From NCBI RefSeq assembly GCF_900102015.1, contig NZ_FNAT01000003.1, positions 186,001 through 250,000 of the forward strand: DNA of 64,000 bases. Direction: 5' to 3'. Positions 49,378 to 54,320 of the stretch are shown here, one piece after another (positions within the stretch are counted from its first letter, which is position 1; each line of letters opens with the position of its first letter). The position numbers were made by a program, and so were the translations under genes. The DNA comes from Limimaricola pyoseonensis. GTDB lineage: Bacteria; Pseudomonadota; Alphaproteobacteria; Rhodobacterales; Rhodobacteraceae. The notes under the pieces were generated by a model, which made no database searches, had not been told where the DNA came from, and saw only the letters and a program-made list of their open reading frames with translations.

Positions 49378-50178
49378 ATGGGGCAGGGCAACGCGCCGAT
49401 CATCGTGAAACGCAAGAAGGTCGTCGCCGGCGACGGCCATCACGGCGGGGCGTGGAAGGTCGCCTATGCCGATTTCGTCACCGCGATGATGGCCTTCTTC
49501 ATGCTGATGTGGCTCTTGAACGCCACCACCGAGCAGCAGCGCAAGGGCCTCGCCGACTACTTCGCCCCGACTATCGCGATCAGCCGCACCTCCGGCGGCG
49601 GCGCGCAGGTGCTCGACGGCTCGGCCCTGCACCAGACCCAGGCCATGAGCGAGAGCGGCACCGGCGCCGAGATCGGCGTCATGGGCGCGGTGCCGCTCGA
49701 CCTCGCCCCCGAGAAATCCTCTGGCGCGGCGCAGGCCGCCGAGGTGGCCGCGCTGCGCGCCGCCGAGGCGGTGCTGATCGGGCAGGGCGGCGAAAGCCTC
49801 GTCTCGCGCGAGGCGCTGCGCCATGTCGTCACCCGCCTCACCGACGAAGGTCTGGTGATCGAGATCTTCGCTCGCCCCGGCGCGCCGATCTTTGCGCCCG
49901 GCGCCGCCGAGCCGCTGCCGGTCACCGTCGAGCTTCTGGCCCTCGCCGCGCAGGCGGCGGGGCTGGTGCAGAACCCCGTGGGCCTCGGCGCGCATCTCGC
50001 CGCCCGTCCCGTGGTGCTGGCCGAGAACCCGGTCTGGCCGCTCTCGGCGGCCCGCGCCGACGCCGCGCGCCGCGCGCTCGAGACGGGCGGCGTCGCGCCC
50101 ATCCGCATCCGTCGCGTCACCGGGCACGCCGACCGCAGCGAACGCATCGAGATCACCCTGATCCGCACGGCGCGTTAG
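49378..50178 (+). CDS. motB: Flagellar motor stator protein MotB
   Basis: The 266-residue stator subunit has a single transmembrane helix, and the proton-binding aspartate lies in WKVAYADFVTAMMAFFMLMW (D32-33 region). A C-terminal OmpA-like peptidoglycan-binding domain (about 140-266) includes PLSAARADAARRAL and VTGHADRS. motA is not adjacent. It begins the rightward motB-flgE flagellar unit. Confidence 0.92.
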   Translation: MGQGNAPIIVKRKKVVAGDGHHGGAWKVAYADFVTAMMAFFMLMWLLNATTEQQRKGLADYFAPTIAISRTSGGGAQVLDGSALHQTQAMSESGTGAEIGVMGAVPLDLAPEKSSGAAQAAEVAALRAAEAVLIGQGGESLVSREALRHVVTRLTDEGLVIEIFARPGAPIFAPGAAEPLPVTVELLALAAQAAGLVQNPVGLGAHLAARPVVLAENPVWPLSAARADAARRALETGGVAPIRIRRVTGHADRSERIEITLIRTAR

Positions 50179-50235: not shown

Positions 50236-51792
50236 ATGACCATCTCCTCCTCGCTTGGCGCGGGCGTCGCCGGGCTCGCCGCCAACGCCCAGCGCCTCGC
50301 CACCATCTCCGACAACATCGCCAACTCCGCCACCCACGGCTATCGCCGCGCCGTGACCGATTTCCATTCTCTGGTGCTCGAGGGCGGCGGCGGCGGCGGG
50401 CGCTACGTCGCGGGCGGCGTCGCCACCAGCACCCAGCGGCTGATCGACACGGGCGGCGCGCTCTCGGCCTCCTCCAACCCGACCGACCTCGCGGTGCGCG
50501 GCCGCGGCTTCCTGCCGGTCGCGGCCAACGCCAACGACGCGGGGGCGGGCGATTTCCGGCTGGTGACCACCGGCTCCTTCCGCACCGATTCCGCGGGCTA
50601 CCTGCGCAGCCCCGACGGGCAGGTGCTGCTCGGCTGGCCCGCCGCCGCCGATGGCACCATCGGCGCCATGCCGCGCGACTCGGCGCTGGCGCTCGCGCCT
50701 GTGCGGGTGCCCACCGGCGCGCTCTCGGGCCAGCCCACCACCGAGGTGGCGCTGGGCGTCAACCTGCCCGCCACCGCCACGCAGGACGGCGCCGACGGCC
50801 TGCCCGAAAACCTGAGCGTCGAGTATTACGACAATCTCGGCGCGCCGCAGCGGCTCGACCTGACCTTCACGCCGCAGCTTCCCGCCCCCGGCGCCGCCGA
50901 CACCAACGCCTGGACCCTGCAGGTCGCCGATGCCGCCTCGGGCGGCGCGGTGATCGGCGAATACGACATCGCCTTCTCGGCCGACCGTGCCGCCGGCGGC
51001 CGGATCGAGAGCGTCATCGCCACCACCGGCGGCGGCTACGACCCGGCCACCGGCCGGCTCGAGGTCGCGGCGGCGGGCGGGCCGATCGGCCTGACCATCG
51101 GCCGCCCCGGCGAGATCGGCGGCCTGTCGCAGCTGGGCGACGCCTTCGCGCCGCTCTCGGTCGAACGCGACGGCGCGCCCACCGGCAACCTCGCCTCGGT
51201 CGAGGTCGATGCCGGCGGCTACGTCCACGCCCATTACGACAACGGCACCAGCCGCCGCATCTTCCAGGTGCCGCTGGTCGACGTCGCCAACCCCAACGGC
51301 CTGATGACCCATGACGGCCAGAGCTATTCCGTCAGCGCCGAGAGCGGGGCGATGCTCCTGTGGGACGCGGGCGACGGCCCGGTGGGCGAGGTGGCTGGCT
51401 TCGCGCGCGAGGAATCCGCCGTCGACGTCGCCGAGGAGCTGACCCAGCTGATCCAGACCCAGCGCGCCTATTCCTCGAACGCCAAGGTGATCCAGACCGT
51501 CGAGTTGTCCTTGGCCGAGGAGACCGACTTGCCGGTCGAGATCTCGGTCTGGGTCTTGGAGAGGCTGGAGTTGATGCCCTTGAGGGTCTGCAGCGCGACC
51601 ATCGCGCCGTTGTTGGTCAGAATGCTCGACATGTTGCGTCGTCCTTCGTCGCGGCGGCTTTCGCGCGCCGGGTTGCGGAAGATCGCCAGCGCGCTCTGCG
51701 CGGGCGGGACGGCCGTTCTGACGCCGGGCGGACCGGGGGATGCCCCGCCGCGATGGGCCCGTTATGGCAGGCCGGGATTAAGCCGGCCCTAA
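50236..51792 (+). CDS. flgE: Flagellar hook protein FlgE with chimeric C-terminal tail
   Basis: The frame encodes 518 residues. Residues 1 to about 421 are FlgE: the N-terminal rod/hook motif with ATISDNIANSATHGYRR, the hook core, and the C-terminal LIQTQRAYSSNAKVIQTV. Normal FlgE ends about 12-15 residues later. Here, from about 51500, the DNA is the reverse complement of a flagellin gene start, and the frame reads through it, giving about 98 unrelated residues (ELSLAEETDLPVEISVW onward). The conserved C-terminal helix needed for hook assembly is therefore cut. flgK and flgL, often next, are absent. GGAAGG precedes the ATG. Confidence 0.8.
   Translation: MTISSSLGAGVAGLAANAQRLATISDNIANSATHGYRRAVTDFHSLVLEGGGGGGRYVAGGVATSTQRLIDTGGALSASSNPTDLAVRGRGFLPVAANANDAGAGDFRLVTTGSFRTDSAGYLRSPDGQVLLGWPAAADGTIGAMPRDSALALAPVRVPTGALSGQPTTEVALGVNLPATATQDGADGLPENLSVEYYDNLGAPQRLDLTFTPQLPAPGAADTNAWTLQVADAASGGAVIGEYDIAFSADRAAGGRIESVIATTGGGYDPATGRLEVAAAGGPIGLTIGRPGEIGGLSQLGDAFAPLSVERDGAPTGNLASVEVDAGGYVHAHYDNGTSRRIFQVPLVDVANPNGLMTHDGQSYSVSAESGAMLLWDAGDGPVGEVAGFAREESAVDVAEELTQLIQTQRAYSSNAKVIQTVELSLAEETDLPVEISVWVLERLELMPLRVCSATIAPLLVRMLDMLRRPSSRRLSRAGLRKIASALCAGGTAVLTPGGPGDAPPRWARYGRPGLSRP
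51468..51632 (-). pseudogene. fliC: 5' fragment of a flagellin gene (fliC), truncated by the flgE junction
   Basis: Reading leftward from the ATG at 51632, the peptide opens MSSILTNNGAMVALQTLKGI and continues through ISTGKSVSSAKDNS, the conserved D0 start of Rhodobacterales flagellins, up to about residue 47 (STVW). It then passes into flgE antisense sequence and stops after 54 residues. GAAGGA is correctly placed before the ATG. Everything beyond the first helix of a several-hundred-residue protein is missing. See the flgE entry for the reciprocal truncation. Confidence 0.9.
51778..51792 (-). promoter_or_regulatory. CtrA-like site upstream of the flagellin remnant
   Basis: On the minus strand this reads TTAG-GGCCGGC-TTAA, the same one-mismatch variant as before flgE, and it overlaps the flgN-like stop codon. 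It lies about 145 bp before the flagellin ATG. Confidence 0.4.
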
Positions 51793-52097
51793 CGCCGCGC
51801 GCCGGGATCGCGCGGATTGGAGTCGATTCCGGCGCGTCGGCCGTCGGGGCCGTAGGTGGCGAAGCCGGCCCGCGCCTGCGTCCGGGCGCGGGTCTGCGCC
51901 ATCGCGGCGCGCATCCCCTCCATCGCGGCGCGCAGCAGGCCGGCATTGCGCGCAAGCTCGGGCGCCAGGGCGCGCGCCTCGTCCGGGGTCAGCGTCCCGG
52001 CCAGCGCCGCCTTGCGCCGGGCGAGATCGCCGAGCCGGTCATGCGCGCCCGCGCGCAACAGGGCGCGTTCCTCGGCCAGAAGGGCGGCGAGGCTCAT
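51789..52097 (-). CDS. Small FlgN-like flagellar protein
   Basis: This is a 102-residue helical, charged protein ([40 protein letters not shown]). Size, heptad-like leucine/alanine pattern and location next to flgJ and flagellin suggest a FlgN-type export chaperone for hook-associated proteins, but sequence similarity alone is weak. Its start overlaps the flgJ-like stop (ATGA). Confidence 0.6.
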   Translation of the reverse strand: MSLAALLAEERALLRAGAHDRLGDLARRKAALAGTLTPDEARALAPELARNAGLLRAAMEGMRAAMAQTRARTQARAGFATYGPDGRRAGIDSNPRDPGARR

Positions 52098-52375
52098 GGC
52101 GCGCCCGCCGCGTTGCGCGACAGCGAGCGGTAGAGCGCGTCGGCCAGCCCGATGCCGCCGGCGGCGGTGATGCGCTCGGCCTGCGCCTCGACGAGGAAGG
52201 AGCGGAACTGCTCCTCGCCCGCGCCGCCGCCCCAGCCCGAGGGCGCGGCGCCGAGGCCGGCGGTCTTGAGCATCTCGGCCAGAAAGCCGGTCTCGAGCCT
52301 CTGCGCGGCGGCGCGGAGGGGGTCCGGGGCGGCGGCGGGCGGTGCCTGCGGCGGGATGGCGGTCAGCGGGGTCAT
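52094..52375 (-). CDS. flgJ: FlgJ-like rod-binding protein (no muramidase domain)
   Basis: The 93-residue protein consists of a single rod-binding domain: AAAQRLETGFLAEMLKTAGLG, then EEQFRSFLVEAQAERITAAGGIGLADALYRSL. It corresponds to the N-terminal half of enterobacterial FlgJ, which caps the growing rod; the peptidoglycan hydrolase half is absent, as is usual in Alphaproteobacteria. It is divergent from fliK. Confidence 0.85.
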   Translation of the reverse strand: MTPLTAIPPQAPPAAAPDPLRAAAQRLETGFLAEMLKTAGLGAAPSGWGGGAGEEQFRSFLVEAQAERITAAGGIGLADALYRSLSRNAAGAP

Positions 52376-52432: not shown

Positions 52433-52444
52433 GCCTTGCCGGGC

Positions 52445-53614
52445 ATGATGGGCGCGTCCCTGCCCGAGGTCCGAATGCAGCTGCCCGCCGCCCTGTCGCC
52501 CGCCGCGCCGCCCGCCGCGCCGCCCGCCGCGCCGCCCGGCCCGCCGCCCGGCCCGCCGAAGCCTGCCTTGCCGTCTGAGAGGGGTGGCGGCGGATTCGCC
52601 GCGGCATTGCGCGCCGAGACGGGGGGCGACGAGCGGCCGGGGGAGGCCGTCGGGCCGGAGTCGGCCGGTGAGGAAGGCGGAGAGCCGGAGGTTTTGGAGG
52701 AGGCCGGGGGCGAGGGCTTGGGGGGTGAGGATCGCCCGCGGCTCGAACCCCGCGCCGAAGCGCCTGAAGAGGACACGGAGACAGGGCCGAACGGCGCGGC
52801 CGTGCCTGCCGTCGGGCATGGCCCGGACGGTCCGGCGCGGGGCGCGGGCCATGAGGAGGGGCCGGACCCGCCGGGAGCGGCGCCGGGGGGCAAGGCTCCC
52901 GGCGGTCAGGGCGCAGGCGTGGCCACCGGGCCGGCGGCGCTGCTGGCATTGGCGGCGGGCGAGCGCGCGGGCGGGGGGATGACGCAGGACGCAAAGGCGC
53001 CCGAGGCACGACTCGCCGCCGCGAGCGATATTGCGATGGGGCCCATGCTGCCGGCCCCGGCGCCACGGCAGTCCGGCCCGGCGGCACGGCCCGCGACCGA
53101 GGTCGCGCCGCTGGCCGAACCGGCGGGCGATGTCGGGTCGGGCGCGACGGGCGGCGAGGTGGCGGCGCAGGCCGAGCCGCGGGCAGAGGCCCCGCGCGCC
53201 GCCGCGCTGCCACGGCTGGTCGCCGCGCAGGTCGCGGTGCTGGTCCAGCCGCAAGCCGCACCGCAGGGCGGCGCGGCGACCGGGCTCAGCATCGACCTGC
53301 AGGAGCTGGGGCGGCTGGCGCTGCAGGTCGAGAGCGCGGGCGACCGCGTCACGCTGACCCTGCAGGCCGAGCGGCCCGAGACCGAGGCGCTGCTGCGCCG
53401 CCACCTGCAGGAGCTGGCGCAGGAGCTGCGTGCCGAGGGGTGGGAGACCATCGACCTGAACTTCGCCGGGCGGGAGGACCGCCCCGCGCCCGATCCGGAC
53501 GATCCCGGCGCAGAGGCCGCGCCGGGGCCGGAGACGCGGCCCGCCAGGGCCGTTTTCGTGCCTCTGGGGACGGGCGCTGCGGGCGGGGCGGCGGGTCTCG
53601 ACCTGCGGCTGTGA
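52445..53614 (+). CDS. fliK: Flagellar hook-length control protein FliK
   Basis: The 389-residue molecular ruler has a disordered N-terminal two-thirds rich in A, P, G and E (including PAAP/PGPP repeats) and a C-terminal FliK domain, GLSIDLQELGRLALQVESAG through LRRHLQELAQELRAEGWETI. This two-part layout is typical: the first part senses length, the second switches export specificity. Start could be 52445 or 52448; TTG at 52436 is less likely. flgD follows 13 bp after the stop, and flgE is its substrate partner. Confidence 0.85.
   Translation: MMGASLPEVRMQLPAALSPAAPPAAPPAAPPGPPPGPPKPALPSERGGGGFAAALRAETGGDERPGEAVGPESAGEEGGEPEVLEEAGGEGLGGEDRPRLEPRAEAPEEDTETGPNGAAVPAVGHGPDGPARGAGHEEGPDPPGAAPGGKAPGGQGAGVATGPAALLALAAGERAGGGMTQDAKAPEARLAAASDIAMGPMLPAPAPRQSGPAARPATEVAPLAEPAGDVGSGATGGEVAAQAEPRAEAPRAAALPRLVAAQVAVLVQPQAAPQGGAATGLSIDLQELGRLALQVESAGDRVTLTLQAERPETEALLRRHLQELAQELRAEGWETIDLNFAGREDRPAPDPDDPGAEAAPGPETRPARAVFVPLGTGAAGGAAGLDLRL
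52499..52558 (+). repeat. 12-bp tandem repeats in fliK
   Basis: Three exact copies of CCCGCCGCGCCG (52499-52534), then two exact copies of CCCGGCCCGCCG (52535-52558), in frame. They encode PAAP x3 and PGPP x2. Units of 12 bp change the ruler by four residues without frameshift. Confidence 0.9.
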
Positions 53615-53627
53615 GAAGGAGAACGAG

Positions 53628-54320
53628 ATGACCGAGATTGTTCCGACCATGCCCGCCGCTTCGGCCGTGCCGGCCGCGCCGACCCCGGCGGCAGGGGCGG
53701 CGGGGGCCACCGGCGCCGGGCCGGTGCTGAACCCCGAATTCGACACCTTTCTCAAGATGCTGACCGCGCAGATCCGCAACCAGGACCCGCTTTCGCCGAT
53801 GGATTCGGCCGATTACGCGGTGCAGCTCGCCACCTTTTCGGGGGTCGAGCAGCAGATCCGGGGCAACGAGCTTCTGGGGCAGATGCTGGAGCGCACGGGC
53901 GGCGGCGGGCTGGCCGACCTGTCGGGCTGGGTCGGGCGCGAGGTGCGCGCGGCGATGCCGGTGCAGCTGTCGGGGCAGGCGATGCGGCTCGAGCTTGCGC
54001 CCGCGCCGGGGGCCGAGAGCGCCGAGCTGGTGGTCACAGATGCCGGCGGCCGCGTGGTCGGGCGGCACGGGCTGGGGCCCGGGGCGCAGAGCATAGACTG
54101 GGCTGGCGGCACCGACGCCGAGGGGCGGCCGCTGCCCGAGGGGCTCTACGATTTCGAGGTCGTCAGCTTCGCGGGGGGCGCCGAGATCGCGCGCGAGACG
54201 GTCGAGACCTATGGGCGGGTGCGCGAGGTGCGGCTCGGCCCCGAGGGACCGGTGCTGCGGCTCGAGGGCGGGGCGGAGGTCGCGCCGGGCGCGGTGAGCG
54301 CGCTGCGCGAGGGAGGGTAG
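53628..54320 (+). CDS. flgD: Flagellar hook assembly scaffold FlgD
   Basis: The 230-residue hook cap has a low-complexity N-terminus, then the FlgD core FDTFLKMLTAQIRNQDPLSPMDSADYAVQLATFSGVEQQ, a FlgD Ig-like region, and VSFAGGAEIARETVETYGRV at the end. It caps the hook while FlgE polymerises. GAAGGAGA precedes the ATG. The following 189 bp to ubiB are GC-rich with inverted repeats but no T-run terminator. Confidence 0.93.
   Translation: MTEIVPTMPAASAVPAAPTPAAGAAGATGAGPVLNPEFDTFLKMLTAQIRNQDPLSPMDSADYAVQLATFSGVEQQIRGNELLGQMLERTGGGGLADLSGWVGREVRAAMPVQLSGQAMRLELAPAPGAESAELVVTDAGGRVVGRHGLGPGAQSIDWAGGTDAEGRPLPEGLYDFEVVSFAGGAEIARETVETYGRVREVRLGPEGPVLRLEGGAEVAPGAVSALREGG

Follow-up and report, generated by a model that had tools for sequence, protein, structure and literature searches.

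The head-on junction between the hook gene flgE and a flagellin gene, fliC, in Limimaricola pyoseonensis marks a deletion of about 25.4 kb that took out almost the entire ancestral fla1 flagellar cluster. The best explanation of what went with it includes the 3' end of flgE, flgK, flgL, flgI, FlhA, other flagellar genes, and the body of fliC. The junction was found in the window, a stretch of 64,000 nucleotides on contig C12 of the L. pyoseonensis genome G000 (20 contigs, 99.99% complete).

The flgE-fliC junction and the cluster it replaced

The flgE open reading frame starts at 50236 on the plus strand and is normal through ...RAYSSNAKVIQTV; the flgE-type reading ends with ...AYSSNAKVIQTV, and the same frame then crosses the reverse complement of the start of a flagellin gene, the ATG of which lies at 51632-51630 on the minus strand. 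VIQTV of flgE is located at 51492-51503, and the sequence beyond 51503 is antisense flagellin. The flgE frame matches Pfam Flg_bbr_C as far as profile position 36 of 46, while the 54-codon minus-strand ORF at 51468-51632 scores above the Pfam Flagellin_N cut-off (E 1.7e-7). The original prediction of a head-on chimera with both genes broken is confirmed by this Flagellin_N match and by the same junction in 18 genomes, and its statement that the locus is unable to make a normal hook and filament stands, both genes being broken. It was also right that FlgE loses its last dozen or so residues, as the final 12 in an intact relative, DEMLQETTNLKR, are replaced in the window; it correctly recognized an antisense flagellin start, the length of which is 44-45 native codons and not about 47. 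The features of the locus are as follows.

49378 to 50178, plus strand: motB, an intact remnant gene marking the left edge of fla1 (Pfam MotB_plug, E 3.3e-19)
50236 to 51503, plus strand: native part of flgE, M...VIQTV codons (Flg_bbr_C); the open frame extends to 51792 via antisense flagellin
51492 to 51503, no strand: deletion junction CCAGACCGTCGA (BLAST overlap of the flgE and fliC matches, query 1257-1268; junction alignments)
51501 to 51632, minus strand: 5' fragment of fliC, first 44-45 native flagellin codons (Flagellin_N 1-44)
51468 to 51632, minus strand: 54-codon flagellin-strand ORF, MSSILTNNGA...NSTVWITLAFEE stop, its end antisense to flgE
51789 to 52097, minus strand: FlgN-like remnant gene, weak (Pfam FlgN, E 0.0015, under the curated cut-off)
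52094 to 52375, minus strand: rod-binding (FlgJ-type) remnant gene (Pfam Rod-binding, E 6.6e-10)
52436 to 53614, plus strand: fliK, intact remnant (Pfam Flg_hook, E 1.2e-13)
53628 to 54320, plus strand: flgD, intact remnant at the right edge (Pfam FlgD, E 2.1e-17)

The 12-mer at 51492-51503 is the sole exact copy in the window, where three others occur with one mismatch, and according to the junction alignments the crossover sits in its right-hand 2-3 bases. The locus is identified as a fla1 remnant by motB-flgE on one side, the FlgJ, FliK, and FlgD genes on the other, and an intact cluster in a relative; the order of the remnant genes agrees with the fla1 order in the available text of PMC12363192. 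The MotB of the window, which is without a stop, is 68% to that of this relative, Limimaricola sp. G21655-S1 (G007).

When the junction region was used as a DNA query, four of the seven congeners matched straight across it at 76-78% identity (G003, L. hongkongensis DSM 17492; G004; G005, L. cinnabarinus XM1; G006, L. soesokkakensis CECT 8367), and the chimera is present in five of the eight Limimaricola genomes. Two separate matches were found on one contig of G007, to flgE at 131237-132501 (plus strand) and to antisense fliC from 157891 (fliC on the minus strand), which overlap by 12 bases of the query. Comparison of synteny with this close relative showed both genes intact and 25.4 kb apart, with the flagellar cluster between them, including flgK, flgL, flgI, FlhA, and further flagellar-type ORFs, most of which are named from gene order and the available text of PMC12363192 rather than from individual tests. 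Because five of eight Limimaricola share the chimera and G007 keeps flgE, fliC, and the intervening cluster, the junction is a deletion scar. Both motif copies in G007 are direct repeats, with flgE on the plus and fliC on the minus strand, so the event was a deletion and the proposed inversion via inverted copies is ruled out. The suggestion of a deletion driven by a direct repeat of about 12 bp thus held for the deletion, the repeats lying 25.4 kb apart in G007, and failed for the repeat, which is imperfect and insufficient.

The same gene order, with 21-26 kb separating the two matches, was found in three genomes of other genera (G018, G017, G009). G023 is an exception, in which fliC lies about 55 kb away on the other side; the two matches in G014 and G019 are on different contigs, and the G001 contig stops inside motB. 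G002 lacks any match over the whole interval that starts ahead of motB and ends past flgD; in that genome (L146, C161), other sequence of about 2 kb takes the place of motB-flgD, a different loss at the same locus.

The body of fliC was sought elsewhere in the genome of the window, where the two Flagellin_C matches are both on contig C6. In tblastn, 19 of the ORFs predicted in the G007 stretch find a match on this 80-kb contig, including flgE, flgK, flgI, flgF/flgG-type, MotA-type, flgD, and flagellin ORFs; the contig also has a full flagellin with both Pfam ends, plus FlhA. Judged from its gene content, C6 carries a predicted second flagellar set, likely of the fla2 type going by the literature. 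FlhA is found in one copy in each of seven Limimaricola and in two copies in G007. Relocation of the fliC body or the flgE end is ruled out, as Flagellin_C is on C6 only and FlhA is single or absent in deleted genomes. Limimaricola would tolerate the loss of fla1 because the second flagellar set is retained. Separately, a second intact flgE-like gene with four FlgE-type Pfam families was observed at L006 1492-2985 (genome C11:501677 region), the neighbors of which in a 3.1-kb stretch are not flagellar-looking by eye. Further contigs of other Limimaricola carry short matches to the flgE end, and two fragments with a hook-basal body protein annotation flank an IS21 element on Limimaricola variabilis OXR-209 plasmid NZ_CP139695.1 (L225 18862-22493).

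Recurrence in the family and position of the crossover

The family screen covered 394 genomes of 393 genera. The junction pattern was detected in 11 of the genomes (10 genera), and a reversed-pattern control gave 0 matches in all 394. A second screen with the flagellin start, the junction left out, matched 313/394 genomes among the matches listed and, again among these, added two chimeras, G391 and G412, bringing the total to at least 13/394 genomes and at least 12/393 genera. In this screen, 20 genomes of middling score were picked by eye; of the remaining picks, 15 had an open frame 273-500 aa long, G335 was located at the edge of a contig, and two were without a match. The weakest scorers, such as G068, G246, G259, and G303, were left out, the screen sees breaks only between about codon 30 and codon 119, and a fragment beside a full flagellin in the same genome could escape it. 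Named FlgE loci contributed 7 chimeras among the 74 readable of 80. Altogether, at least 18 genomes are chimeric, including three single-contig genomes (G163, G291, G391), Roseivivax halotolerans JCM 10271 (L059), and two MAGs (L081, L100). Several genomes bear two labels (L033=G005, L034=G006, L035=G003, L042=G162, L081=G412). The length of the FlgE tail and the position of the flagellin-strand stop differ among species, with stops within the tail in, e.g., G151, G139, G163, and G162. The flagellin fragment of L081 begins VSSILT, with a start codon other than ATG.

The FlgE tree contained 84 rows, among them 18 chimeras (L041 was left out as too short). The chimeras need 12 changes on this tree, nine of which are forced by starred branches, and a single clade of chimeras was rejected (p-AU 1e-111). 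The clustering of the chimera label exceeds that in 499 of 500 shuffles, in part because of Limimaricola. Deleted genomes stand beside intact ones at several places (L034/L036, L042/L058, L100/L108+L111, L059/L054, L081/L076), and the flgE DNA of L034 and L036 is 97% identical. Up to the junction, a single residue separates the L100 flagellin fragment from L108, against ten residues between that of L042 and L058, indicating that the flgE and flagellin histories disagree in the latter pair.

The position of the crossover was read from the codons on both sides. On the flagellin strand, the codon is Thr in all 18 chimeras (the flgE base T on the plus strand); of the 16 intact flagellins read, 14 have Ala at this place and two have Ser. 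Eight of the 18, in which the next flagellin codon is Ala, keep the fliC base three positions on. The flgE-side T in every chimera and the fliC base retained in the Ala cases together confine the crossover to 2-3 bases, and in the eight Ala cases it is pinned to 2 bases.

Direct repeats are present at both parental ends in most intact relatives, as an imperfect CCAGACNGNNG in flgE and in antisense fliC, and the chimeras retain one copy. The score of this motif is 3-9 in 15 intact genomes (of 16 tried), and 156 to 122,612 other segments per genome score at least as high (15 genomes, at most 3 kb x 2.8 kb), meaning that the repeat does not stand out from the background in any of the 15. Nor does the crossover fall anywhere in the repeat, the flgE-side base being retained in 18/18. 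Repeat homology as the sole cause is ruled out by the many equal or better segments nearby; because local homology is poor, a homology-led process should choose other sites too. Among 67 intact flgE genes, the flgE site varies at its third codon positions, and therefore a fixed DNA recognition sequence was not seen there; the site is slightly more conserved than the gene as a whole (excess codon homozygosity 0.107 for the final 24 columns vs 0.061 in the whole gene). Given the abundance of equal segments and the weak third-position conservation, the choice of site is accounted for neither by homology nor by a fixed DNA word. GTC is the Val codon in 13/18 chimeras vs 22/67 intact flgE, and the extra GTC in chimeras may be the fliC base.

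Age of the deletions and competing explanations

Selection was tested in eight trios of deleted, intact, and outgroup genomes, covering eight of 18 deleted genomes; of ten flgE trios, two were excluded as repeating a lineage or its sister. Private changes in FlgE numbered 92 N/391 S in deleted tips and 106 N/392 S in intact tips, and the relaxed-selection share of deleted tips was -0.014 (95% -0.07 to 0.04). The flagellin fragment, read in seven trios, gave 7/38 in deleted vs 3/35 in intact tips (p 0.33), and the first 44 flagellin codons of Limimaricola carry 0-3 non-synonymous changes in all 15 pairs. Stops were absent from motB, the flgE and fliC remnants, fliK where found, and flgD in seven genomes, among the matches listed. 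An old pseudogene relic, expected to show relaxed selection, stops, and frameshifts, thus does not fit the 8/18 genomes tested for selection or the stop-free listing of seven genomes. Two genomes differ: G127, outside the selection trios, stands on the longest branch of the FlgE tree (0.82-0.84), and FlgE of the window's genome is faster than that of other Limimaricola (end branch 0.47-0.51, dN/dS 0.41-0.49). Relaxation of FlgE is possible in both, while the flagellin fragment of the window has zero amino-acid changes relative to G007. FlhA had no match in 11 of the 13 deleted genomes outside Limimaricola, so that flagellar export is gone in those 11. With no relaxed selection on FlgE in eight lineages and FlhA absent from 11/13, the deletions look young and real; a bias exists, in that searching for good junctions together with good FlgE favors young scars.

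Transfer of the scar between genera left no signal in the similarity of the junction flanks: deleted genomes showed no excess similarity over 6-24 codons to the left or 4-40 to the right (permutation p 0.43-0.91; Limimaricola-Limimaricola pairs, L081, and G391 left out), and the Ala or Ser codon adjoining the junction is the same as in the intact neighbor in 5/6 pairs compared. G000 and G003, both Limimaricola, stand out by their similarity next to the junction (0/60 differences on the left and 3/65 on the right, against 11/60 in the next left window), and on this sequence comparison the scar may have been exchanged within the genus. Neither repeat homology nor intergeneric scar transfer accounts for the shared breakpoint.

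The reading we favor, at about an even chance, is a recurrent deletion hotspot at the flgE-fliC pair, acting via strand-switch or end-joining at the shared motif; we infer repeated de novo deletion at this site. The event would use the coding-conserved, imperfect CCAGACNGNNG of both genes and would always resolve at its fliC-proximal end, and flagellum-less lineages (fla1-less where a second set exists) would be young twigs. A distance of 25 kb is long for classical replication slippage. Young, independent deletions in five of eight Limimaricola would be many, which counts against the hotspot. The chief rival, which we consider improbable, is one old deletion allele spread by homologous recombination, in which scar fragments recombine into intact relatives; the junction bases would then be identical by descent, and recombination within a species would maintain flanks that are local and functional. 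Such an allele would account jointly for the uniform crossover and for the absence of decay, and both the similarity of G000 and G003, limited to a stretch from about -60 to +130 relative to the junction, and the partial clustering of the label on the FlgE tree point the same way; however, the absence of excess similarity beside the junction and the agreement of the Ala/Ser codon with intact neighbors described above speak against it.

The boldest reading, also unlikely in our judgment, is programmed or enzyme-driven excision, in which a recombinase or nuclease cuts both coding motifs as a one-way or rarely reversible motility switch. A crossover within 2-3 bases in every chimera, though the local homology of intact relatives varies widely, would be expected of an enzyme, as would the apparent youth of the deletions and this same junction in every resolved truncated fla1 flagellin of the 394 genomes, among the matches listed. 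However, the degenerate third positions of the flgE site do not resemble a fixed recognition sequence, the junction of an excised circle was found in 0/394 genomes (a lost circle leaves no assembly trace), and the single viral-contig match to the circle junction was without a flagellar ORF by eye. As for carriage of the scar itself, a phage-borne form was rejected, its two viral matches being without a flagellar ORF by eye, and so was a plasmid-borne form, since every plasmid record falls short of 80% coverage of the junction query. Far less probable is a function of the chimera itself, as a truncated hook protein, a 54-aa flagellin peptide, or convergent RNA: it would fit the little or no decay of the two gene remnants, but the FlgE tail and flagellin-strand stop vary by species, FlhA is unmatched in most deleted genomes outside Limimaricola, and the N/S of FlgE in the trios is that of intact hook genes, unchanged. 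The assembly or sequencing chimera that the original prediction held as its alternative is hardly credible, being excluded by the same junction in relatives (18 genomes, three of them single-contig) and by the FlhA missing from 11 genomes.

Relation to known systems and significance

The human mitochondrial 4,977-bp common deletion is likewise large and recurs independently at one short direct repeat; that repeat is a perfect 13 bp, whereas the one described here is imperfect, unremarkable, and recurrent across genera. Programmed excision between sites inside genes is known from heterocyst and spore elements, in which it restores a gene, whereas the fla1 deletion breaks two and removes organelle genes. 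The RecV flagellar switch of Clostridioides difficile also turns flagella off by DNA rearrangement, and in the available text of PMC7446863 it is a reversible inversion by a known recombinase, unlike the present deletion, the reciprocal product of which was not found in 394 genomes and for which no recombinase was noticed when the ORFs listed for G007 were read by eye.

According to the available text of Tomasch et al. 2025 (PMC12363192), the Rhodobacterales fla1 cluster is chromosomal, vertically inherited, and lost sporadically and independently, and second flagellar types exist, some on plasmids. The losses reported there concern the same cluster as here (motB flgEKLI ... fliC ... flgD), and that text gives no breakpoint, whereas many of the losses described here share one nucleotide-precise junction. 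The words 'truncated', 'pseudogene', and 'Limimaricola' each occur 0 times in its main text. Flagellar genes of relatives are described in the available text of PMC4149021 and PMC12016528, where the flgE-fliC junction is unmentioned, and no publication in the literature searched was recognized as reporting it. Sporadic loss of fla1 is thus already known, and, as far as these texts go, the shared nucleotide-precise junction is what is new.

In its widest form, which is doubtful, the finding would be an excision of fla1 in Rhodobacterales that occurs at high frequency, is precise to the nucleotide, and depends little on homology, acting as a one-way motility switch that keeps producing fla1-less cells, visible in genomes as young twigs, and as the main first step of flagellum loss. 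Perhaps the scar is a common route by which the ancestral flagellum is lost in the family; that it was also the first step of older losses is conjecture, for which the 81/394 genomes without a flagellin match, among the matches listed in the flagellin-start screen, leave room. Flagellum loss is usually viewed as random erosion; here, at least nine switches between the intact and the deleted state are needed on the FlgE tree, every deletion joins one and the same pair of codons, which lie 25 kb apart, and the leftover hook gene is undecayed where tested. If the hotspot reading is true, the loss of an organelle in an ecologically central marine family would run through one DNA event; if the scar is instead shared by descent, a deletion allele would be persisting across species, which would be equally surprising.
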